Below are positions 4,701 to 30,681 of a stretch of 34,295 nucleotides of DNA, piece by piece (the first letter of the stretch is position 1; each line of letters begins with the position of its first letter). Position numbers and translations under genes: made by a program. Origin of the DNA: a virus; the IMG/VR virus record IMGVR_UViG_3300024243_000054, positions 1-34,295 of that record; one strand, written 5' to 3'. The notes beneath the pieces are model-generated. The model saw only the letters and a program-made list of their open reading frames with translations. It made no database searches and was not told the DNA's origin.

Positions 4701-4935
4701 TGAACACACAATAGAGGCAGGAAATGCTCAAAGTATTATTACGTCTAAATGGGTAGCAGACACAAATGGCGTTGCTAAAAATGAAGAAGGTTCAGGAAAA
4801 GTAGACAGAAAACCCGATAAACAAGTCAAGTGTGCAGTAAAAACTCAAGCAAGAAAAGAGCAAGCTAACGAATCTTCTACTCCAAAAGCGATAAGCAAAG
4901 TTTCTGATCGTCCAAACACGGAGCCAAAAGCATAA
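1720..4935 (+). CDS. Very large baseplate hub-like structural protein
   Basis: 1071 residues. Most of it is not recognisable by sequence, but the last quarter ends in the signature of phage hub proteins: GIGGYYMVTRSEHTIEAG followed by a strand and a short tail, the pattern of gp27/gpD-type hub barrels, where the closing strand reads roughly YxVTxxxHxI. The rest is Lys/Asn/Phe-rich and mixed alpha/beta; a Glu/Arg/Gln-rich helical stretch lies near residues 160-195 and the final 45 residues are charged and Pro-containing, probably disordered. It is far longer than T4 gp27 (about 390 residues), so it may fuse hub with other baseplate functions. TAATG overlap with the next gene. Codon use is visibly AT-rich compared with dnaE. 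Structural role likely; exact component inferred. Confidence 0.5.
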   Translation: MTCYDPNGPLTKEQFEQLFELVHAESNEWGEVAKEVVAEPPPDGFLETAGNFLTDLVTPGVEDIKKPDNFVSWMSENKELVPGVYQIYADYNRDVLKDNSFGPPSQRSFENRYQQSKCSVNTNGLLELIFEKYESSVGGFINATIIQETSLADQGLNSADIAAASQSKELTDAASAKLNLERRESEQRQKQIEVALFTTPPPQFNDSCFLLSNIVSLAKFKKNMNPVRLPYVDSLDSNLASICNLKNADHSPENFYRNSNSPIPMDGEAFAFINDLTKAEHFSEMFNLTTDKISALVPSVRLYKVITDSEGKDVDNIEIQFDANPSVESYKDGDKNVSALDLFNNGSKRGMGVGLKSFTFEFRGSDPFSIKKDIRATLGIHTTSFNDLIIERKGKGMTSGKEARYSFAELALKTGKTPEEFRKKLSTIQQENLDKLNFRLKAVVGWAVPMKTSLSFTKSEFDAIRDSYIVLNLTPVTHEFNFGEQGQVDFNIQFHAYITDYFNNPTFNIFSDFQIESNRIGRKLLYNFLNKVNCDSEELSQIKKSDSTVIAAEKVSSFKTIISSLKSRKKLYFYNLTDEQILEFVRNGFIKNAPTPSQTKDNGVDKINEYFETIVSSTEGFSEEDKKNLKFSLSAATSQKGEVSFFFLTDLLDVIMDNIDRTLDKISTQLPKDKQFLNYFDSISNQGYDISEGLKQDFGVYLEDGTLGLAKKEFLRLKKSKEQFSKLRIVLGPTEIVDPFDSSKVVFCSLGDIPISLNFFVDFMSSKVLSSEEVYYPINNFIKDITSELLRNFLNNDSCFAFQNKQKVRIYSSVITAFNKEKNYGSNVDQITKYMLPSGNRINAKTFPIKPLLNVSGPSRSPVVLTENNREYNYFIFYAGRSYPVDKMRGNEAEDNKRGIFHYIQGKDRGIVQTINLQKTDLPGLKELRFEKEGFDGLTQLREVYNASVTCFLNVQTFPGTYIYVDPKGFIPEYQKPQDFTQFGIGGYYMVTRSEHTIEAGNAQSIITSKWVADTNGVAKNEEGSGKVDRKPDKQVKCAVKTQARKEQANESSTPKAISKVSDRPNTEPKA

Positions 4936-6113
4936 TGTCAACATTTTACAAAGAAAACAACAATGAAACCTCTCTGGAGTTATTTAATAAGAAGCTTGTC
5001 TACAAATCTGATGTTTTGAAGACAGGTTACTCAAATCTTATAGATTTCAACTTTGCAGAAAAAGCGCTTTATGGAAAAGTAGGCAGGACCTATGTTCCAA
5101 TAACTGCTAATCCAAGCTTGGTTAGGTTTAAAGATTTTAAAAGTTCAGGCAATCCAAGACAAAACTTGCAGGCAATAGGATTTGTTGTGGATGCCTTTGA
5201 GGCTTTAGCTCAACAATTTAAGAAAGCAGAACAATCAGGCAAAATTTATTCTAACGATCCTAATCTTACTAATCTAAAAGTTTATAAAAGTTATAAGTCA
5301 AATAATATTAGTTATGAAGAATATCAAATTAATTTTATTAAAGCTTTAAAGACAAATATGAATATTAATAATATTCATAATTTTCAAACATTCATAAAAG
5401 AACTCCTAGCTACTGTTAGTATTGTAACAAGAACTTACCCGTTGTCAATGCCTGCTTACACAAAAAGTAAACTAAATAGCCTGACCAATAGTGGGCTTGC
5501 TCTTGAGATTGCTGATGCACCCTATGATAACGATGACCAAAAAATAAATGATTTTGTAAACAGCAAGAATTGGGAGTTCTATGTAAACGCTTGTAACTCT
5601 TATGGCTTTATGATCGATATCAATGCTCCCTGGAGATTGATCGCCGACCTTGACTCTGAAGCTATGATGGGTTATGCTAGTGCTTATGGACTTAGAAGTA
5701 CTGATGCAATCTTGACTTTGGGGTTCTCAACAACTCATAACAGATTTTACAACCAATTACCACAGCAGCTATTGAGACTCTACAACGAAATGGTTCCAAC
5801 ACACATTCCATCATTTGATGAATGTGGTTCTAAGATTATAGCCACAGAACGCTATACTCTTCAGTCATTGCAACAAAAATTCTCAAACGATTTCTTCATG
5901 AAGTTTTATTTTGATCTTAGGTTCTCGGAAGAAGAGAACACCTTCAGTATAGCTGAAAAGCAGAGGATCATCAAGGATTGTTTGCAGCTATCAAGATCTT
6001 CAGATAACCGCACTGCTCTGGGAGCTTTCGAGCGCTATGTGAACCAACCGTTTGACTACAGAGGATCCTTGAGTTATCTTATAGAAGCACAGAGACTCAG
6101 AGAGGACACATGA
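4935..6113 (+). CDS. Unknown protein of the tail gene cluster
   Basis: 392 residues; I do not recognise a family. It begins in a TAATG overlap with the hub-like gene and ends in an ATGA overlap with the family-A polymerase gene, so it is translationally linked to both. The sequence is rich in Asn, Tyr, Phe and Lys, has no signal peptide or membrane segment, and contains predicted helices in the middle (for example KNWEFYVNACNSYGFMID) and toward the end. Conserved-looking features are a DLDSEAMMGYASAYG segment and a C-terminal FERYVNQPFDYRG segment. Gene order suggests a virion or tail-assembly protein, but its coupling to a polymerase gene means a non-structural role cannot be excluded. Confidence 0.5.
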   Translation: MSTFYKENNNETSLELFNKKLVYKSDVLKTGYSNLIDFNFAEKALYGKVGRTYVPITANPSLVRFKDFKSSGNPRQNLQAIGFVVDAFEALAQQFKKAEQSGKIYSNDPNLTNLKVYKSYKSNNISYEEYQINFIKALKTNMNINNIHNFQTFIKELLATVSIVTRTYPLSMPAYTKSKLNSLTNSGLALEIADAPYDNDDQKINDFVNSKNWEFYVNACNSYGFMIDINAPWRLIADLDSEAMMGYASAYGLRSTDAILTLGFSTTHNRFYNQLPQQLLRLYNEMVPTHIPSFDECGSKIIATERYTLQSLQQKFSNDFFMKFYFDLRFSEEENTFSIAEKQRIIKDCLQLSRSSDNRTALGAFERYVNQPFDYRGSLSYLIEAQRLREDT

Positions 6114-7300
6114 TTTTCCAAACACTTGACGACAAGTCAGAGTGTGTCGGCATCTACACCAACGGAGCCCTTCATTTTGAGGGCATCCCTGGCGGGCTGA
6201 CCAAGACTTGGAAGTATACTGGATCCATTAAGGATCCTGAAATCAAGTATGCTTGGCTTTACAACGGAGGCAAGAATCTTCAGGAAGCTTGCCCCGAAAG
6301 CCTAAAAGAAGAATTAAACGAGGTTCAGAAAACCTTCAAGGCTTATTTGCTTTCGTTTAAGATAGCTCGCATTGACTTGCGACAGAACTGCTTCTTTGAT
6401 CTCGTCCCATCGGACTTTTTGATGCAGTTTTGCGAGGTTCGTAACAAGATCACCGAGCACGTTTTCGACACTTGTAAGCAGCCAGCCAATTATAATCAGC
6501 TAGACAAGATCTATAAGCTAATCCATAAGATAAGCTACCAGAAACTAAACATCAATGTAGATGGCTGCCGCCACCTGATGACCTCCACGAGCGACCGAGA
6601 AGACATCAAGAACCTTGTAAAAAACAAGCCGCACTACGTGAGCTATAACCTTTTTGGAACGGTTACGGGGCGTCTCACAACCCAGAGAGACAGCAATCCG
6701 ATCCTAACTATGAAGGCGAAGTTCCGAGAACTCATCAAGCCAACAAACGACTGGCTTGTGTCTCTGGATTACAATGGAGCGGAGGTCAGAACTTTCTTAT
6801 CTCTCTCAGGACACGAACAACCACAGGAAGACATTCATAGCTGGAACATGAGACACCTCTATGGAGGTTCTCCCGTAGATCGTGATGAGGCAAAGGTAAG
6901 ATTCTTCTCCACCCTCTACAATGTGAACGATATGTCGCTCAACGGCTCTGTTTATAGCCGAGAAGGCGTGCTTTCTAAATTTTATAAGGGCGGAAAGATC
7001 AACACTCCGACAGGAAGGCAGATTGAAGTAGAACAGCGTAAGGCACTGAGCTACTTGATTCAAAGTACAACATCGGACTTGACCCTAGACCGTGCTGTGG
7101 CGCTGGATAAAGCCCTCGAAGACACAAAATCGAAGGTAGCGTTTATTGTTCACGATGAAGTGGTACTAGACATAGCAGAAGAAGACAAAGAGAGAATTCC
7201 AGAACTGAAAGCTATGTTTGAGAACAATAGTTTGGGTAAATTTATGGCTAACATCAAGGCAGGCAAGGACTATGGGAACTTAAAAGAGTTGAAGCTATGA
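6110..7300 (+). CDS. polA: Family-A DNA polymerase, polymerase domain only (no 3'-5' exonuclease)
   Basis: 396 residues, against about 600 for a Klenow-like fragment. The catalytic motifs of family A are present in order: TGRL at 186-189; motif A with Asp220 (SLDYNGAEVR); the O-helix pattern R258-x3-K262-x3-F266-x3-Y270 within DRDEAKVRFFSTLY; a QSTTSD motif at 318-323; and motif C His-Asp-Glu at 348-350. These residues bind the two metals and the incoming dNTP, so the enzyme is probably active. The first 150 residues show no DEDD exonuclease motifs and are too short for both an exonuclease and a full thumb. The residue after the O-helix Tyr is Asn where Gly is usual. It overlaps the structural gene before it and the tubulin-like gene after it. 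A repair or auxiliary polymerase is as likely as the replicase, since dnaE is also present. Confidence 0.9.
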   Translation: MIFQTLDDKSECVGIYTNGALHFEGIPGGLTKTWKYTGSIKDPEIKYAWLYNGGKNLQEACPESLKEELNEVQKTFKAYLLSFKIARIDLRQNCFFDLVPSDFLMQFCEVRNKITEHVFDTCKQPANYNQLDKIYKLIHKISYQKLNINVDGCRHLMTSTSDREDIKNLVKNKPHYVSYNLFGTVTGRLTTQRDSNPILTMKAKFRELIKPTNDWLVSLDYNGAEVRTFLSLSGHEQPQEDIHSWNMRHLYGGSPVDRDEAKVRFFSTLYNVNDMSLNGSVYSREGVLSKFYKGGKINTPTGRQIEVEQRKALSYLIQSTTSDLTLDRAVALDKALEDTKSKVAFIVHDEVVLDIAEEDKERIPELKAMFENNSLGKFMANIKAGKDYGNLKELKL

Positions 7301-8160
7301 TTTCGCTAATAGGCATAGGCGAAGCTGGCTGCAATGTGGTCTCTCTGTTTGAGAACCATAGAGAATACAACTGCTTTTTGTTCTCAGAAGGTCAGGAGAA
7401 TACGAAATACACACGCAAACTATCAAAAGTAGCAAAAGCAGAGGATTGCGAGGGAAAGGCACCCAAACTATCCTCGTACAAGACGGAAGAGGCAATACAA
7501 GAAAGAGTACAGGTGTTCCTTTGTGGATCATCTTTCTCTGCGAACTACACACTTGCGATTCTACAGCAAATAAGAGATAGAGAGATAGACATCTTCTATA
7601 TCAAACCAGATGTAGATTTCTTGATTGGTAACTCAAAGCTACAAGAGCGAGCGATCTTTGGTATTTTACAGGAGTATGCCCGTTCTGGTTTATTCAAGAG
7701 CTTCACGATCTTGTCCAACCCTTCAATCGAGAAGACAATAGGCGAAATCCCAATAAAAAAATACTTTGATACAATCAATAAAAGCATCTACTATGCGGTT
7801 CATTACCTAAATGTGTTTGATCATACGACTCCGCTTGTAGGTAATCTTTCCAAGCCCTCAGATGTCCAGAGAATCCGCTCTGTAGGCATAGTCTCAGTTG
7901 ATAAACTAACTGAGAATTGGTACTACAAACTAGAGGAAGATCGTGACGTAGCATACTACTTATGTATAGCAAATGAGCGCTTGGAAACGGACGGAAAACT
8001 CCACTCCCGAGTGGTCGAGAGCCTAAAAAACAAACCCCGAAACGCATTCAAAAATGTGACCTATGGAATCTATGAGTCGCCTTATGAAACCGACTTCGGA
8101 TTCTGCGTGGCTCACACAAATTTCGTTCAAGGACAAAAACTACTTGACAGCAAAGGCTGA
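7297..8160 (+). CDS. Divergent tubulin/FtsZ-like protein
   Basis: 287 residues, starting in an ATGA overlap with the polymerase gene. The N-terminus MISLIGIGEAGCNVV has the strand plus Gly-rich T1 loop of FtsZ/tubulin (compare IGVGGAGGNAV). A second loop, LCGSSFSAN at 75-83, sits where FtsZ has the GGGTGTG T4 loop but has lost most glycines. Further on, SFTILSNPSIEKTIGEIPIKKYFDTINKSI (in two parts, 136-164) follows the FtsZ pattern of a strand, an Asn loop, a helix, and the H7 Asn (N161). GNLSKPSD at 182-189 occupies the T7 position, where FtsZ has NxDxxD; only the first Asn and last Asp remain. I infer a tubulin-fold protein with weakened GTP binding or hydrolysis. No signal peptide or membrane segment is seen. 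Its role is unknown. Confidence 0.55.
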   Translation: MISLIGIGEAGCNVVSLFENHREYNCFLFSEGQENTKYTRKLSKVAKAEDCEGKAPKLSSYKTEEAIQERVQVFLCGSSFSANYTLAILQQIRDREIDIFYIKPDVDFLIGNSKLQERAIFGILQEYARSGLFKSFTILSNPSIEKTIGEIPIKKYFDTINKSIYYAVHYLNVFDHTTPLVGNLSKPSDVQRIRSVGIVSVDKLTENWYYKLEEDRDVAYYLCIANERLETDGKLHSRVVESLKNKPRNAFKNVTYGIYESPYETDFGFCVAHTNFVQGQKLLDSKG

Positions 8161-8222: not shown

Positions 8223-8251
8223 TTGACAGGACTTGGACAGCGTGTTACATT
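8223..8251 (+). promoter_or_regulatory. Promoter of the ssb gene
   Basis: Perfect TTGACA at 8223-8228, a 17-base spacer, and an extended -10 TGT-TACATT (8246-8251). It lies about 50 bases upstream of the SSB start codon with an AAGGAG ribosome site (8291) between them. Together with 8144-8172 it gives ssb two possible start points. Confidence 0.7.
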
Positions 8252-8302: not shown

Positions 8303-9070
8303 ATGGGAATCAACATGGAGCTAATGCGGAAGAAGCTCGCCGCACTACGAGGAAATGGAAAGAGCGACAGGACAAGCGTCTGGTTCAAGCCAGAAGAGGG
8401 CGACACTGATGTGCGAATCGTCCCTGCCAAGGACGGAGACCCTCTGAAGGGGGTGTTCTTTCACTATAACATCGAAGGACATCGCGGCGGCGTTATGTGC
8501 CCTAAGCGTAACTTCGGTGAGGCGTGCCCAATCTGTGATTTCGCTTCACAGCTATGGAAGGACGGCACCGAAAACAACGACGAGGAGACTAAGAAGCTTG
8601 CTAAGTCTCTCTTCATTCGTAATCGTTACTTCTCACCAGTAGTGGTGCGAGGGCTTGAGAGCGAGGGCGTGAAGGTCTATGGTTACGGCAAGCAGGCTTA
8701 TGAGCTTCTGCTGGGTTACATTCTAGACCCCGAGTATGGCGATATCACCGACCCGCATGGCGGCACTGACATCACCATCACTTACACAAAGCCGACTACT
8801 CCGGGCGCTTACCCGAAGACAAACATGAAGATGCGTCGTAACACCAGTCCGCTCCTGCCAGACGCAGATGCCATCCCTGGTCTGCTTCAGAACATGCCCG
8901 ACATTGATGGACTATTCACTCGTCACAGCCCCGATGAGGTGTCAGCCATTCTTGATGGTATGCTCTCTGGCGACAAGTCAGCAGAGAGCCGCTCAAGAGA
9001 GACAACGCAGTACAATCAGGGCGGCAAGTCCAGTGTTGATAAGGCATTCAACGATCTAATGGCTGGCTAG
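8303..9070 (+). CDS. Single-stranded DNA-binding protein, T4 gp32-like
   Basis: 255 residues from the ATG at 8303, chosen because AAGGAG lies 7 bases upstream and because the open frame upstream of it crosses the promoter region. The N-terminus (NMELMRKKLAALRG) resembles the basic cooperative-binding region of gp32. A zinc site is visible: His60 (or His54), Cys66, Cys75 and Cys78, the last pair as CPIC; gp32 uses His64, Cys77, Cys87 and Cys90. The C-terminal third is acidic then Ser/Gly-rich and ends with VDKAFNDLMAG, like the flexible tail that contacts other replication proteins. It coats ssDNA at forks and in recombination. Two promoters upstream and a strong terminator downstream make it an isolated, probably highly expressed transcription unit. 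Confidence 0.85.
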   Translation: MGINMELMRKKLAALRGNGKSDRTSVWFKPEEGDTDVRIVPAKDGDPLKGVFFHYNIEGHRGGVMCPKRNFGEACPICDFASQLWKDGTENNDEETKKLAKSLFIRNRYFSPVVVRGLESEGVKVYGYGKQAYELLLGYILDPEYGDITDPHGGTDITITYTKPTTPGAYPKTNMKMRRNTSPLLPDADAIPGLLQNMPDIDGLFTRHSPDEVSAILDGMLSGDKSAESRSRETTQYNQGGKSSVDKAFNDLMAG

Positions 9071-10372: not shown

Positions 10373-10402
10373 TAACCTATTTTGTTAGAGCATAAATTGA
10401 AG

Positions 10403-10444
10403 ACCCGACTACTTACTGTGGAGGACATAGAAATGAAGTCGGGT
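10403..10444 (+). promoter_or_regulatory. 8-bp inverted repeat enclosing the GIY-YIG start codon
   Basis: ACCCGACT (10403-10410) pairs with AGTCGGGT (10437-10444). The 26-base loop holds the GGAGG (10420-10424) and the ATG at 10433. Initiation could be modulated by this fold. It may be chance, but a similar arrangement occurs at the HNH gene (16825-16886). Confidence 0.4.
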
Positions 10445-11263
10445 ATCTATCAAATCAAAAATTTAACAAATAATAAAATCTACATAGGCAGTTCTGTTGA
10501 CATAAAGGCACGCTGGGCAGGTCATCGAAGCGACCTGAAAAACAAAAAGCACCACTCAAAACACCTACAGCGCTCTTGGGAGTTGCATGGTTCTAATGCT
10601 TTTGAATTTATGATCTTGGAGGTTGTGAAAGATTCTGAATTGCTCTTGGAAAGAGAGCAACATTATCTAGACACCCTCAGACCTTATGAGAGGGAGGTAG
10701 GCTATAATAATTGCAGAGAAGCAGGAAGACCTACTGGCTATAAACATTCGGAAGAAACTAGAAGAAAAATGTCTGAAACAAAAAAAGGACATAAACATAG
10801 TGAAGAAACGAAAAGAAAAATAGGGATTTCACAAAAAGGGAAGCACATTTCTGATGAAACAAAAATAAAACAAAGCATTTCTGCCAAAAAACGATGGAAA
10901 AGGACAGATGCCTGTACGGAGGAAACGAGAAAGAAAATGTCCGAAGCACATAAAGGTAGAAAGCCTTGGAACAAGGGCATAAAAACTCCGCAAGAAGTTA
11001 AAGACAAAATTAGCAAAACCCTCAAAGGTAGACCCTCTCCAATGAAGGGAAACAGGCACTCCGAAGAGACAAAGAGGCTAATGAGTGAAGTAAGAAGCGG
11101 CGAGAACAATGCCAGATCAATAATGACTTGGGAAAAAGTTAGAGAAATAAGAAGGCTTTATGCCGCTGGCGGCATCAGCCAACAAAAACTAGCAGACCAA
11201 TTTGGGTGCTCCAAGGGCTGCATTAAACACATTCTAAAAAACAGATCATGGAGAGAACAATGA
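10433..11263 (+). CDS. GIY-YIG homing endonuclease with NUMOD3 repeats
   Basis: 276 residues from the ATG at 10433, which has GGAGG 8 bases upstream and begins right at the GIY-YIG domain. A TTG at 10382 with GGAGGT 8 bases upstream is an alternative start adding 17 residues. The nuclease domain covers residues 1-95: GIYQI and KIYIGSS (the GIY-YIG pair), the conserved Arg in the following helix, and a Glu near ERE (catalytic metal ligand). Then come repeated NUMOD3 units (HSEETRRKMSE, HSEETKRKIG and similar) that contact DNA in the minor groove, and a C-terminal helix-turn-helix (residues about 235-275). SegA/I-TevI-like enzymes cut intron- or gene-less alleles to spread themselves. The gene is A-rich compared with recA, a sign of transfer. 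Its end overlaps the flap-nuclease start. Confidence 0.88.
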   Translation: MKSGIYQIKNLTNNKIYIGSSVDIKARWAGHRSDLKNKKHHSKHLQRSWELHGSNAFEFMILEVVKDSELLLEREQHYLDTLRPYEREVGYNNCREAGRPTGYKHSEETRRKMSETKKGHKHSEETKRKIGISQKGKHISDETKIKQSISAKKRWKRTDACTEETRKKMSEAHKGRKPWNKGIKTPQEVKDKISKTLKGRPSPMKGNRHSEETKRLMSEVRSGENNARSIMTWEKVREIRRLYAAGGISQQKLADQFGCSKGCIKHILKNRSWREQ

Positions 11264-17613: not shown

Positions 17614-17844
17614 ATGAAGTTCAATCACTTGCTCAATGAAAAAGAGCGATTACAATTTTGTAAAAATAGAAACCTTGTTGTTTGTAAATGGAAGCCTGTC
17701 TCTGAAGGGCAGGCAACCGCAGGCAACAATGTTTGCGTAAGTATGCTATGCGATGAGTGTGGAGCAAGAACTGAAAAGTTCCTACACTCTGAAGACTACA
17801 AAACACACGAAAAAGTTATTTTAAAAGAGGTAAATGATGATTAG
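17614..17844 (+). CDS. Small protein of unknown function with a CxxC motif
   Basis: 76 residues, started by an ATG with GAGAGG 5 bases upstream. It contains two clusters of Cys: an early Cys16/Cys24 pair and LCDECGARTEKFLH, which together with nearby His residues could bind zinc. The last 10 codons overlap the start of the GroES-like gene in another frame, suggesting translational coupling. No family recognised; a small regulator or adaptor protein is possible. Confidence 0.6.
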   Translation: MKFNHLLNEKERLQFCKNRNLVVCKWKPVSEGQATAGNNVCVSMLCDECGARTEKFLHSEDYKTHEKVILKEVNDD

Positions 17845-18106
17845 ACCAGTAAACAGACACATCCTAGTTGATTACAATCCCCCACAGGAGAAATCAGACT
17901 CTGGGATCTTATTGCCAGATGACTACAAAGCTCCAGAAGAGAACCACATCATAGTAAAAGTTCTTGGCGTGGCTGACGATGTGTCATTTGAATGCGAAAA
18001 AGGTGATCAAATCGTGATTGATAAGAAGATGTTGAGCGATTTAGTTATCGATCATTCTACTTATTACACGATTTTAGAGAACTATGTAATAGGGGTAATC
18101 GATTAA
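17837..18106 (+). CDS. groES: GroES-like co-chaperonin (T4 gp31 analogue)
   Basis: 89 residues from the second of two adjacent ATGs (17837), which is better spaced from AGAGG than 17834. It follows the Cpn10 pattern: MIRPVNRHILVDYNPPQEKSD for the first strands, then SGILLPDDYKAPEE, which corresponds to the mobile loop with its hydrophobic Ile-Leu-Leu contact to GroEL, then VKVLGV, KGDQIVID and a closing strand YYTILENYVIGVI. In T4, gp31 replaces host GroES so that GroEL can fold the large major capsid protein; the same job is likely here. It directly abuts the endolysin gene, which starts at the next base after its stop. Confidence 0.85.
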   Translation: MIRPVNRHILVDYNPPQEKSDSGILLPDDYKAPEENHIIVKVLGVADDVSFECEKGDQIVIDKKMLSDLVIDHSTYYTILENYVIGVID

Positions 18107-24474: not shown

Positions 24475-27400
24475 ATGACTGAGAGAACACAGAGCAAGAT
24501 CAAGTTTGTTGGGCTACACGCCCACAGCGTAGCGGGTTCCATCTTTGATGGTCTCGGCTTCCCGCAAGACCACATGGACTTCGCCTACCAGAATGGAATG
24601 GATGCCCTCGCCCTAACAGACCACGGCAACCAGAATGGTCTAGCCTATCAGGTCCTTCACGCAAAGAAGATGAAGGCAGAAGGCAAGGACTTCAAGCCGA
24701 TCTTTGGTTGCGAGGCTTACTTCATCCCTTCTATTGAAGAGTGGAAGGAGGAATACGAACAGACTATGCTTGATAAGAAGAAGGCACGGGCAGCCAAGAA
24801 GGCTGGTGCGTCTGCTGCTTCTGTCGAGGATGAAGGTGCGAGCAAGGGTAAGAGCAGCAATGTTCTACGCCGCCGTCGCCATCTTGTGCTCCTCGCACAG
24901 AACCAGACCGGGCTGAACAACCTATTCAAGCTTGTGTCTGAGAGCTACAAAGATGAGAACTTCTATCGCTATCCTCGCATGGACTACAAGATGCTCAAGG
25001 AGCACGGCGAAGGCATCATCGCTTCGTCTGCTTGTCTTGGCGGTGTCTATGCTGGAAACTACTGGGAGAACCGAGAAGAAGGTTCAGAAGCAGTTCTTGA
25101 GGCTATGCGGGAAACTACACGCAACATGCTTGATGTGTTCGGTGATCGCTGGCACGGCGAGATTCAGTGGAACAATGTCCCAGAGCAGCACGAACTCAAC
25201 AAGTTTGTTATTCAGGTTTGTGATGAGTTTGGTGTGAAGGTTATTTCTACCGCAGACTCACACTATCCTAATCGTGATGCTTGGAAGGATCGCGAACTCT
25301 ACAAGCGCCTTGGTTGGCTTGGTAAGGGTCGCCCGCAGTGGGCAGACACCGAGAGTGAACTGCCTATCTCTGTTGACGAGATTGGCTATGAACTCTACCC
25401 CAAGAACGGGGACGAGATGTGGGAAAGCTACAAGAGCTACTCGCAGATGTGTGGTGCGACTTATGATGACGACCTTGTTCTGCGTTCTATTGAGGAGACT
25501 CATAAGATTGCGTTTGATCGCATCGAGAACTTCCTTCCAGACAACACTGTTCGGCTCCCTTCATTCGTTGTGCCTGCTGGACACACCGCAACCGAGGCGC
25601 TAATCAACTTCTCGCTTGAAGGTCTGCGTAAGTTGGGTCTTGCCGACAACCAGCAGTACCTTGCGAGACTAAAGGAAGAACTCCACGTCATTGACGACCG
25701 AGGCTTCTCAAAGTACTTCTTGACTATGAAGGCAATCGTTGATGTTACTGACACAATGATGCTCGCTGGTCCCGGTCGCGGTTCCGCTGCTGGCTCACTT
25801 GTTGCGTATGCTCTCGGCATTACGCAGGTTGATCCTATCAAGTATGACCTCCTATTCTCTCGCTTCTTGCGTTCCGACGCCAAGGATTACCCAGACATCG
25901 ACTATGATGTCAGTCGTCCTATGGAACTGAAGGATAAGTTGATTGAGTTGTGGGGCGAGGATTGCGTTGCGCCTATCTCCAACTGGAACACTCTTCAGTT
26001 GAAGTCTCTTATCAAGGACATTTCCAAGCTCTATGGTATTGAGTTTGGTGAGGTCAACTTGGTTACGAATGCGATGCTTAAGGAGGCAACACCTCTCGCC
26101 AAGCAGAAGCATGGCATCAAGGCTGGAATGTATACTCCAACCTGGGAAGAGGTGCTTGAGTTCTCTAGTTCTCTCAAGAATTTCCTGAGCAAGTATCCCA
26201 ATGTAAAGACGCACGTTCGCGCTCTTGTTGGTCAGGTTCGCTCTGCGTCCCGCCACGCTGGTGGTGTTGTGATTGCCGAGGATCTCGACAAGAATATGCC
26301 CCTAATCAACTCCAAGGGTGTGCGCCAGACTCCTTGGTCAGAGGGTCAGAACGTCCGTCACCTTGAGCCGATGGGCTTTATCAAGTTCGATCTTCTTGGT
26401 CTCTCGACCCTTGCTATGATGGAGACTGCGATTGAGCTAATCCTCAAGCGCCACCACGGCATCGCAGAGCCAACCTTCAAGCAGGTCAAGGACTTCTACG
26501 ACACAAAGCTCCACCCCGATGTTATCAACCTTGATGACGAGAAGGTTTACAAGAATGTTTTCCACAAGGGTAACTTTGTAGGGACTTTCCAGTTCACTGA
26601 GGATGGGGCTCAGAACTTCGCAGAGAGAGTAAAGCCTAACAACATCATTGATGTCTCGGCTATCACCTCTATCTATCGTCCCGGTCCTCTGTCCGCAAAT
26701 GTTCACGAGGATTACATTGAGGCAAAGGAGAGTCCACAATACATTAAGTATCTTACACCCGAGGTCCAAGAGATCACTGAAGAAACATTCGGTTTCTTGA
26801 TCTTTCAGGAACAAATCGCTAAGATTGCCCACGCACTCGGCAAGGATCTGTCTCTTGACGAGGGCAACTTGCTTCGTAAGCTTCTAACTAAGAAGGGGAC
26901 GGGCAAGGGTTTTGAAGTCAAGGATGCGATTCACAAGAAGTTCATTGATGGATGCCTGGAGAAGAACATCGCTAGGTCTGAAGCACAGAGTCTATGGGAA
27001 AAGTTTGAATACTTCTCTGGCTATGGCTTCAACAAGTCCCACGCTGTTGCCTATTCTATCATTTCTTATCAGTGTGCTTGGCTTCTAACTCACTTTGAGG
27101 CAGAGTGGACTGCTGCCTTCCTCGATAAAGAGCCAGAGAAGAAGAAGGAGAATGCGATTAACATCGCCAAGTCTCTTGGCTACGACATCCAGCCAGTTGA
27201 GGTCAACACTTCTGGTCGCGTCTGGGGGATTGGTGCTGATGGAAAGACCCTCATTCAGCCTCTAACTAGCATCAAGGGCTTTGGTGATGCCGCTATGGAT
27301 CAGATTCTAGATAATCGCCCATTCGCCGACATCGAAGACCTTTTGTTCCGAGATGAGATCAAGTACGCGAAGCTGAACAAGAAGGCTCTGGATGCCCTAT

Positions 27401-27918
27401 GCCGAGCGGGTGCTATGGATTCTCTTATTGATGAAAGATTCACAGGTCGCAAGCACTTCTGGTCTGCCTCAGTTATCGATCGTCCGAAGACTAAAAAGAA
27501 ATTCCATGACAACATCGATCTATACAGACCCGAAGGTGACTTTAGCGAAGAAGAGATTATCCAGTTTAAGACAGACCTCACAGGGGTGTTCCCAATGTCA
27601 CTGGTTGTGAGTCCAGAGATGATTCAGGACTTGCGAGACAAGTACATCCCGCCAATTTCAGAGTTCGATGAGGAACTACAGATTTGCTGGTTTATTCCAC
27701 GCAAGGTTGTGTCCAAGAAGACGAAGAAGGGCAAAGACTATTGGATTCTAGAAGTGATTGATTCCAATAACGAGACAGAGAAGATTAGATGTTGGGGAGT
27801 TGATGTAAAGAAAGACAGAATTCACATCAATCGCCCCTATCTATCACGGCTGAGTTATGATCCGAAGTGGGGTTTCTCCACTAGGTCAGTTTACAGAAAC
27901 TTTAGACTACTGGGGTAA
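24475..27918 (+). CDS. dnaE: DNA polymerase III alpha subunit (DnaE type)
   Basis: 1147 residues, close to bacterial DnaE. The PHP domain (about 1-300) keeps the metal ligands of active PHP exonucleases: HAH at 15-17, TDHGN, CEAYF, RHLVLLA, SACLGG and TADSHY; E. coli DnaE has lost several. A low-complexity Ala/Lys/Ser insertion lies within it near residues 100-125. The catalytic palm has AGPGRGSAAGSLVAYALG and PDIDYD with Asp474 and Asp476, and a third Asp639 in KFDLLGL. Later come FGFLIFQEQ, the fingers/thumb-type segments and GYGFNKSHAVAYS. The C-terminal 150 residues (after a helix-hairpin-helix-like region) may be an OB domain. It is a replicase candidate, perhaps proofreading through PHP. 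GC-richer than the tail genes. Own promoter upstream. Confidence 0.93.
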   Translation: MTERTQSKIKFVGLHAHSVAGSIFDGLGFPQDHMDFAYQNGMDALALTDHGNQNGLAYQVLHAKKMKAEGKDFKPIFGCEAYFIPSIEEWKEEYEQTMLDKKKARAAKKAGASAASVEDEGASKGKSSNVLRRRRHLVLLAQNQTGLNNLFKLVSESYKDENFYRYPRMDYKMLKEHGEGIIASSACLGGVYAGNYWENREEGSEAVLEAMRETTRNMLDVFGDRWHGEIQWNNVPEQHELNKFVIQVCDEFGVKVISTADSHYPNRDAWKDRELYKRLGWLGKGRPQWADTESELPISVDEIGYELYPKNGDEMWESYKSYSQMCGATYDDDLVLRSIEETHKIAFDRIENFLPDNTVRLPSFVVPAGHTATEALINFSLEGLRKLGLADNQQYLARLKEELHVIDDRGFSKYFLTMKAIVDVTDTMMLAGPGRGSAAGSLVAYALGITQVDPIKYDLLFSRFLRSDAKDYPDIDYDVSRPMELKDKLIELWGEDCVAPISNWNTLQLKSLIKDISKLYGIEFGEVNLVTNAMLKEATPLAKQKHGIKAGMYTPTWEEVLEFSSSLKNFLSKYPNVKTHVRALVGQVRSASRHAGGVVIAEDLDKNMPLINSKGVRQTPWSEGQNVRHLEPMGFIKFDLLGLSTLAMMETAIELILKRHHGIAEPTFKQVKDFYDTKLHPDVINLDDEKVYKNVFHKGNFVGTFQFTEDGAQNFAERVKPNNIIDVSAITSIYRPGPLSANVHEDYIEAKESPQYIKYLTPEVQEITEETFGFLIFQEQIAKIAHALGKDLSLDEGNLLRKLLTKKGTGKGFEVKDAIHKKFIDGCLEKNIARSEAQSLWEKFEYFSGYGFNKSHAVAYSIISYQCAWLLTHFEAEWTAAFLDKEPEKKKENAINIAKSLGYDIQPVEVNTSGRVWGIGADGKTLIQPLTSIKGFGDAAMDQILDNRPFADIEDLLFRDEIKYAKLNKKALDALCRAGAMDSLIDERFTGRKHFWSASVIDRPKTKKKFHDNIDLYRPEGDFSEEEIIQFKTDLTGVFPMSLVVSPEMIQDLRDKYIPPISEFDEELQICWFIPRKVVSKKTKKGKDYWILEVIDSNNETEKIRCWGVDVKKDRIHINRPYLSRLSYDPKWGFSTRSVYRNFRLLG

Positions 27919-29566: not shown

Positions 29567-29677
29567 ATGGAACACTTAGTGAATTGCCACGGAGAGTGGG
29601 CAGCACTTTTCGCTTGCATTAGTTCGCTCCCTATGTTAAGTTATTGGTACAAGTTCAGAAACAAGGAGGAAACTTGA
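29567..29677 (+). CDS. Small single-span membrane protein (36 residues)
   Basis: ATG at 29567; residues 11-28 (WAALFACISSLPMLSYWY) form one membrane segment with a polar His/Cys/Glu start and a basic end (KFRNKEE). It fits the gap between the J-domain gene and purA exactly, and its TGA overlaps the TTG start of purA. Such short proteins with a C-H-x-E-W-A-A start are common in related phages by my recollection, but their role is unknown. No strong Shine-Dalgarno site is seen. Confidence 0.55.
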   Translation: MEHLVNCHGEWAALFACISSLPMLSYWYKFRNKEET

Positions 29678-30681
29678 TTACCGACGTTGTTATTGGTCTC
29701 CAACACGGAGACGAGGGTAAAGGAAAGGTTACCCACCACTTGCTCAAGAGTGGAGAATACACCCATTGCGTTAGATTCAATGGGGGTTGTAATGCGGGAC
29801 ACACGATCTTCCATAATGGAAAAAAGTTTGTCACCCATCACATCCCAGCAGGCGTCTTTTTCGGAGTTACATCAGTAATCGGCAACGGTTGCGTGATTGA
29901 TCCGATGAAGTTAGAAGAAGAGATAGACTACTTAGAATCCCACGGAATCCCCGTGCGGCAACATCTAAGGATCGCAAAAAATGCTCATGTTATCACCGAA
30001 GACCACAAAATCGAAGACGGCGCTGACGAGAAGATTGGAACAACTAGAACTGGTAATGGACCTGCTTATCGTGATAAGTATGGTCGGACTGGCATTCGCG
30101 CCTGCGACGTACTTAACTTCCAACCTTATCTAGTAGACATTTACGAAGAGCTATCAGGCGACACGGTAATCCTAATGGAAGGGGCGCAAGGCTTCTGGCT
30201 TGACCCTGACTGGGGCGATTACCCGTTTGTAACGTCTTCACACACAGGCACGGCTGCCGCCATCCAGAACGGCATCAGCCCCCGCTCTATTCGCAATGTC
30301 TGGGGCATCATCAAGGCTTACGAGACCTATGTAGGAGCCCGTAGCTTCCAGCCAGCCTCTGAAATCTTCAACCGCATCCAAGAGGTCGGGCAGGAATTTG
30401 GAGCCACCACAGGGCGTGTGAGGCAGTGTAATTGGATAAACGTGAAGGAGGTCCAGCGCGCCATTAGCATGAACGGAGTCAACCGCCTTGTTATAAACAA
30501 AGTGGACATTTTGCGAGAGGTCGGCTCTTGGGGAACAACTGAGGCTTATGTTGAGAATGAATCATCATTTCGGTCATTCTTGCAAGAACAGTTTAGTGCG
30601 AGACTAGGAATAGATAAGATTTATTTCTCTGACAACCCCCGCACGATCTCGGACGAAAAGGGCTTGACAGAAGCAGCGTGA
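29674..30681 (+). CDS. purA: Adenylosuccinate synthetase (short phage/archaeal type)
   Basis: 335 residues from TTG at 29674 with AGGAGG (29664-29669) upstream, overlapping the previous stop (TTGA); a longer frame from TTG at 29644 lacks a good site. The GTP loop is GDEGKGK (12-18) with catalytic Asp13, and His43 follows in NAGHTIF; both residues are used by PurA. IGTTRTGNGPAYRDKYG is the IMP-binding segment, ATTGRVRQCNW the aspartate-binding loop, and NKVDIL the guanine-specificity motif. Bacterial PurA has about 430 residues; archaeal and phage enzymes are near 340. It would join IMP (or, in PurZ relatives, dGMP) with aspartate. Since it retains Asp13 I call it PurA-like, not PurZ. Confidence 0.85.
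   Translation: MITDVVIGLQHGDEGKGKVTHHLLKSGEYTHCVRFNGGCNAGHTIFHNGKKFVTHHIPAGVFFGVTSVIGNGCVIDPMKLEEEIDYLESHGIPVRQHLRIAKNAHVITEDHKIEDGADEKIGTTRTGNGPAYRDKYGRTGIRACDVLNFQPYLVDIYEELSGDTVILMEGAQGFWLDPDWGDYPFVTSSHTGTAAAIQNGISPRSIRNVWGIIKAYETYVGARSFQPASEIFNRIQEVGQEFGATTGRVRQCNWINVKEVQRAISMNGVNRLVINKVDILREVGSWGTTEAYVENESSFRSFLQEQFSARLGIDKIYFSDNPRTISDEKGLTEAA

Follow-up and report, generated by a model that had tools for sequence, protein, structure and literature searches.

The locus studied here raises the question of why a protein with tubulin-like motifs should be encoded between a DNA polymerase and a single-strand DNA-binding protein in a viral genome. The DNA analysed, called the window, is a stretch of 34,295 nucleotides (IMG/VR record IMGVR_UViG_3300024243_000054, positions 1 to 34,295). 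The original prediction, made from the letters alone, described the product of one of its ORFs as tubulin/FtsZ-like, with degenerate GTP and T7 loops, and as coupled to a family-A polymerase; from this coupling it suggested a part in replication or positioning, or as an assembly factor that does not hydrolyse GTP. This ORF runs from an ATG at 7297 to a stop at 8158-8160, and its 287-aa product is named TUB. Positions of its main features are given in Table 1.

Homologues of TUB were found across IMG/VR at 32-100% identity (family length range 272-312 aa), and dN/dS against close relatives was 0.035-0.07, a value of purifying selection. TUB is thus not a chance ORF; it is a real, functional and strongly constrained gene. 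Curated libraries gave it no name when the single protein or marine profiles were compared with Pfam, PHROGs, NCBIfam and PDB.

Two models were generated with AlphaFold. Window TUB was modelled with AlphaFold2 from 26 family sequences (mean pLDDT 91.1, pTM 0.90), and L149, a distant member of the family with 28% identity to it, from 18 sequences (pLDDT 91.9, pTM 0.90). The two proteins represent divergent halves of the family and the models are independent. Both have tubulin topology, with H7 as the core helix between a nucleotide-binding domain at the N-terminus and an activation domain at the C-terminus. Foldseek yielded 650-880 PDB matches per model at E<=0.001, with FtsZ, TubZ and tubulin ranked first; the best E values were 5.3e-12 for window TUB, with FtsZ/TubZ on top, and 2.5e-11 for L149. 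All matches listed (50 per model) were FtsZ, TubZ or other tubulin-family entries, and among these the query-normalised TM was ~0.62-0.75 at 9-16% identity in both models. In the viral structure library BFVD, the best matches were phage FtsZ/tubulin-like proteins, at ~1e-6.

Sequence searches alone (PDB, Pfam, NCBIfam) never returned tubulin significantly. No PF00091 match was obtained for window TUB, and the best Pfam Tubulin match in the family (L308, E 0.01) scored 16.6 bits against a curated cut-off of 33 bits. The TIGR00065 equivalog cut-off of 295 bits was missed by L149 (11.1 bits, E 0.18, over T6-H7), and window TUB gave no match. Using hhalign, the freshwater subfamily was aligned to FtsZ in register, weakly (p 0.006), and freshwater members to a canonical FtsZ-like protein of the same phages (p 0.005). 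Both values are similar to that of the FtsZ-PhuZ control with the same shallow profiles (p 0.013), and neighbour families gave 0.1-0.8.

Weak Rossmann-type matches (TrkA_N, GARS_N and similar) are all that favours an ordinary Rossmann-like protein with a superficial likeness to tubulin. This reading is largely refuted by the Foldseek ranking, the alignments of which take in H7 and the C-terminal activation domain, and we regard it as very improbable. Fold prediction, proposed from the outset as a check, returned a tubulin fold and not an unrelated one, and the tubulin/FtsZ fold of TUB is well supported by the models.

Table 1. Positions of the features discussed (window coordinates unless a record is named; residues are those of TUB)
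Feature	Position	Strand	Basis
Short family-A DNA polymerase (PolA), 396 aa, polymerase domain only	6110-7300	+	Pfam DNA_pol_A 1.7e-14
polA/TUB stop-start overlap ATGA	7297-7300	+	sequence
TUB, tubulin/FtsZ-fold protein with degenerate GTPase motifs	7297-8160	+	AlphaFold, Foldseek, purifying selection
T1 loop IGIGEAGCN, residues 5-13	7309-7335	+	model, alignment
T4 position CGSSFSANY, residues 76-84	7522-7548	+	alignment
T5 position KPDV, residues 103-106	7603-7614	+	model, hhalign register to FtsZ
QEYARSG motif, end of helix H5, residues 125-131	7669-7689	+	alignment; model helix 111-129
T6 Asn N141	7717-7719	+	aligned to FtsZ T6 Asn
Core helix H7, residues 153-175, with F157, N161, H169, N172	7753-7821	+	model, alignment
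T7 position GNLSKPSDV, residues 182-190, without catalytic D-x-x-D	7840-7866	+	model, alignment
C-terminal activation-type domain, short form without H9, residues 193-274	7873-8118	+	DSSP
Promoter-like site TTGACA-17-TACATT, before gp32	8223-8251	+	consensus match only
gp32-like single-strand DNA-binding protein	8303-9070	+	family searches
Second FtsZ-like protein	L366:5312-6445	+	
Second FtsZ-like protein	L367:4915-6039	+	
Second FtsZ-like protein	L368:5092-6225	-	
Second FtsZ-like protein	L369:6194-7231	-	
Second FtsZ-like protein	L370:4890-5981	-	

Conservation was counted over 184 TUB homologues, with the FtsZ register taken from the hhalign alignment. T1 occupies the S1/H1 turn of the model (S1 = 2-7, H1 = 8-18), and its glycines G8 and G6 are present in 184/184 and 174/184 homologues. 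CGSSFSAN sits at the S4/H4 turn, the place of T4 (S4 = 70-75, H4 = 80-91), and NLSKPSD (183-189) directly follows H7, at the position of T7. The motifs named in the original prediction (T1, T4, an H7 Asn and T7), which had read their order and spacing as right, therefore do fall in matching model elements. The T6 residue N141 is kept in 169/184 homologues and N161 of H7 in 171/184, and position 157 is mostly aromatic (F/Y). In the hhalign alignment these three positions match the T6 Asn, H7 aromatic and H7 Asp/Asn of FtsZ, which we take to be the residues that hold the base in FtsZ structures. Some freshwater members have also lost a T1 glycine or N161.

The signature GGGTG(S/T)G of T4 was found in none of the 184 homologues, and the stretch aligned with the T7 acids (NxDxxD) has an acidic D-x-x-[DE] in only 21. 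Loss of the T7 acids had been predicted and holds for most of the family. The predicted loss of the Gly-rich T4 is greatest in the window's own clade, with its CGSSFSAN, but does not extend to many other lineages, in which a Gly-rich remnant is kept (VGGSGxISGAS or GGSGxISGA); phosphate binding, and even a slow GTPase activity, may therefore persist. Degeneracy of T4 and T7 is well supported by the alignments, and TUB is likely to be non-hydrolysing.

Helices H8 and H9 are absent from both models. Strands of the C-terminal domain were assigned by DSSP to residues 193-199, 206-208, 217-224, 253-260 and 267-274, and no extension past the last strand was found in the TUB family. In phiKZ TubZ, FtsZ and tubulin the protofilament interface consists of the T7 loop, the base of H8 and S9 (PMC3678025). 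Canonical polymerisation of TUB is unlikely because the T7/H8 protofilament face is gone.

These losses bear on the possibility that TUB is a cytomotive filament of the PhuZ/TubZ type that has an atypical active site and centres or segregates the DNA of the phage. Phage tubulins with such filament roles exist (PMC4244570, PMC3678025), and the tubulin fold, the conserved T1 and base-pocket residues and the Gly-rich T4 of many relatives would suit one of them. Against this stand the missing GGGTG, the scarcity of T7 acids, the T7/H8 face lacking in both models, and an end at the last strand where PhuZ and TubZ continue into H11 and a tail. Some of the same phages, moreover, carry a separate canonical FtsZ-like GTPase. 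Taken together, a cytomotive role appears quite unlikely.

A set of polar residues stands out in the same count: Q125, R129 and S130 are present in 184/184 homologues, Y127 in 182, H169 in 164/184 and N172 in 168/184. They form a new conserved set at the end of H5 and in lower H7. Judged by the known topology, the patch is expected at the bottom of the fold, close to where T7 has been lost.

The polymerase upstream of TUB was identified by a PHROG match as well (4e-22), and its catalytic residues are conserved in the alignment (motif A D220, motif B R258/K262, motif C H348-D349). PolA proteins of TUB loci are without exonuclease. PolA was the nearest tested upstream gene in 177 of the 179 loci having upstream room, and the overlap between polA and TUB was exactly 4 nt in 123 of these 177. 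In the two exceptions, L149 and L155, PolA would fall past the contig end because the gap in their clade, seen also in L158 and L159, is ~2.5 kb. Downstream, gp32 was the nearest tested gene in 191/191 TUB loci. Searches seeded with PolA recovered TUB in 57/57 and then 73/73 new loci (130/130). The ATGA coupling to a family-A polymerase first read from the window is confirmed by these counts, and TUB is strictly linked to PolA and gp32. No gene of the module evolves faster than the 392-aa ORF just upstream of polA (4935-6113; mean distance 2.2, against 0.9 for PolA), for which no family match was found.

TUB is best viewed as an operon partner of polA, because the promoter-like site parts it from gp32. 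In a distance-matrix (mirror-tree) comparison the partial correlation was 0.30 for TUB-PolA and 0.47 for TUB-gp32; PolA was not singled out, and on these values the gp32 protein could equally be the partner of TUB. The tie to PolA might also reflect operon membership only, with TUB a nucleotide- or nucleic-acid-binding regulator or a nucleotide-supply enzyme. Nucleotide-metabolism genes abound in the module around TUB, and the invariant polar set (Q125, Y127, R129, S130, H169, N172) could be a new active site. However, no known enzyme motif is present, the linkage is specific to PolA and gp32, and the promoter-like site separates TUB from gp32. We consider this reading improbable.

A second FtsZ-like ORF of about 365-378 aa was detected with PF00091 in five of 12 long TUB relatives, and the TUB of one such contig is 88% identical to that of the window; copies of the ORF from related phages of 165-203 kb are listed in Table 1 (L366-L370). 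Its motifs were intact in 80/80 loci (T1 GVGGGG/GIGGGG, T4 GGGGTGS, T7 FDSKD/FDSRD/FDGKD), and it matched FtsZ structures at 5e-8 and FtsZ families at 5e-13. The protein has 215 relatives in IMG/VR and an acidic N-terminal extension of ~50-60 aa; its sole GenBank phage match is gp138 of Bacillus phage G (25.6%). An SbcCD-like gene lies directly or one gene before the ORF in the two copies with typed neighbours. A single virus can thus encode two proteins of the tubulin fold, one of them apparently live and the other apparently dead, and both lie among genes of DNA metabolism.

As a decoy or cap, TUB might bind the FtsZ of the host, or else the second FtsZ-like protein of the phage, and block or regulate its filaments. 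An end-capping subunit would be expected to keep the fold and the nucleotide face and to lose the T7 face, as TUB does, and TUB is also present in six of nine long records selected for the canonical protein. The canonical protein occurs in only 5/12 long TUB records, however, and so is not a universal partner; its lack of detection in the other 7/12, some of which may be incomplete records, makes TUB unlikely to be a mere regulator of it. Anti-host genes, in addition, rarely keep one polymerase-cotranslated position across a family, and identity of TUB to FtsZ is low (about 10-15%). On balance, a decoy or cap is unlikely.

FtsZ was also encountered in records deposited as phage. Those in MT835756 and OR846604 are typical FtsZ (45-55% identity) in what look like bacterial contigs, and were used for the FtsZ profile only. 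INPHARED entries MT835756, OR846604, OR849061, CAKLQH020000013 and others contain typical bacterial FtsZ and are probably bacterial contigs deposited as phage; in CAKLQH020000013, FtsZ is followed by lpxC.

The reading that we favour, with moderate confidence, is that TUB is a non-filamentous pseudo-tubulin kept as a replication accessory of PolA and the single-strand DNA-binding protein. GTP hydrolysis would have been lost, and end-to-end filament formation probably as well. TUB would be made in step with the adjacent exonuclease-less PolA, most likely acting jointly with it and possibly also with gp32. Its top pocket, formed by T1, T6 and H7 residues, may bind a guanine nucleotide, either for structure or for sensing. 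In FtsZ and tubulin, the T7/H8 face completes the active site of the subunit that follows; in TUB this face appears to be gone, and the conserved patch (QEYxRS with the H7 His/Asn) probably docks a partner in place of another subunit. TUB would thereby act as an accessory or a tether of the polymerase, its partner most likely PolA, alternatively gp32. Nucleotide binding, absence of polymerisation and docking to PolA are what we infer for the protein. Tentatively, TUB may work within a DNA polymerase or replisome as a tubulin-fold subunit that forms no filaments, the first replication-accessory case of this fold, with an intact FtsZ-like GTPase kept in some carriers.

If this is true, the tubulin fold has been uncoupled from filament formation and recruited to DNA replication, and a widespread dark-matter phage gene would be explained. 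A large viral lineage keeps the fold under strong selection after loss of the signature loops, always beside a DNA polymerase. The family also provides a natural series of T4 and T7 erosion, in which it can be asked what each part of the fold is needed for.

Simple patterns located TUB in 77 IMG/VR loci, and two wider scans each gave more than 500 confirmed stretches; as the two sets probably overlap, a safe count is at least several hundred loci. Carriers are T4-like viruses, both marine and freshwater. Long TUB relatives (155-203 kb) contained T4 gp23 in 12/12, a family-C polymerase in 11/12 and a family-B polymerase in 0/12; gp23 was not identified in the window itself, a 34-kb fragment. 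GenBank phages (INPHARED, tblastn) contained no TUB at E<=1, and a prokaryote scan of one genome per species, with a pattern that reaches only QEYARS-motif members, found no relative.

The gp23 of one TUB phage (L457) was compared with named-host records, and the closest were Flavobacterium phage immuto, Microcystis phage Mel-JY01 and Rhodothermus phage RM378; by this one gp23, TUB phages appear to group with the Far-T4 phages. Far-T4 phages (RM378, immuto, Mel-JY01) share with TUB phages the T4-like gp23 capsid, a short PolA and a gp32-UvsX module. The arrangement PolA - x - gp32 - UvsX is common to immuto and Mel-JY01, but x is not TUB: the slot holds 151- and 171-aa ORFs in immuto and 129- and 110-aa ORFs in Mel-JY01. 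In LR756508 the slot is filled by a highly acidic 358-aa ORF, again not TUB. Because the module of immuto and Mel-JY01 is without it, TUB was either acquired in this lineage or lost in others; and since these two cultured Far-T4 phages have PolA-gp32 without TUB, it is not essential to this polymerase type generally. Slot proteins of immuto and Mel-JY01 (L460:1346-1801, L459:5675-6064) share the motif ILVHRKKESNTxYTINxLN and form an unannotated family. Motif C of PolA in these two phages appears to be YD instead of HD.

Further genes of the window were recorded. A PurZ-type (2-aminoadenylosuccinate synthetase) gene at 29644-30681 (PHROG 2e-66) co-occurs with a family-C (DnaE) polymerase at 24475-27918 and the short PolA, a gene content with which this T4-like phage might have a genome containing 2-aminoadenine (Z). 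A GIY-YIG/NUMOD3 homing endonuclease gene (10382-11263) is inserted between uvsX and a 5'-3' exonuclease gene, and a GroES-like co-chaperonin gene (17834-18106, PHROG 7e-12) lies directly upstream of an endolysin-like gene.

To our knowledge, the tubulin homologues characterised in prokaryotes, phage tubulins included, are GTPases that form filaments. In the literature searched, no paper on a phage tubulin linked to a polymerase was found, which is not proof that none exists, and the words FtsZ and tubulin were absent from two papers on Far-T4 or aquatic lineages that might have mentioned TUB. With bacterial FtsZ (PF00091/TIGR00065) TUB has in common two domains joined by H7 (Foldseek E 5e-12, TM ~0.7) and, in register, the GxG of T1, the T6 Asn and the base-pocket aromatic and Asn of H7. 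Unlike FtsZ, it is without the GGGTG of T4, the catalytic acids of T7 and H8/H9, is ~280 aa long, scores far under the family cut-offs and belongs to a replication operon of a phage. TubZ of Bacillus plasmids and phages, the top structural match of the L149 model (4ei7), is extrachromosomal like TUB. It is the intact GTPase of the tubZRC partition system, whereas TUB has a degenerate active site and PolA and gp32 as neighbours. PhuZ/phiKZ TubZ of jumbo phages resembles TUB as a phage-encoded tubulin fold of similar core size, found among the BFVD matches. In PhuZ the catalytic Asp of T7 is retained, along with H8, H11 and a tail at the C-terminus (PMC3678025), whereas both TUB models end at the last strand, without H11 or tail, catalytic T7 or the H8 protofilament face. 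With the phiKZ DNA around PhuZ as reference, the PhuZ gene adjoins genes unrelated to the neighbours of TUB. FtsZl-1 and FtsZl-2 are divergent FtsZ-tubulin families with a GGGTG(S/T)G loop, in membrane-remodelling contexts (Makarova and Koonin, 2010; PMC2875224). TUB is similarly divergent and in a non-division context, but is without the GGGTG loop and found in phages only. Because TUB fails two defining GTPase motifs and the curated cut-offs, it is placed by its structure in the tubulin superfamily, as a degenerate variant, and not under FtsZ, PhuZ or TubZ.
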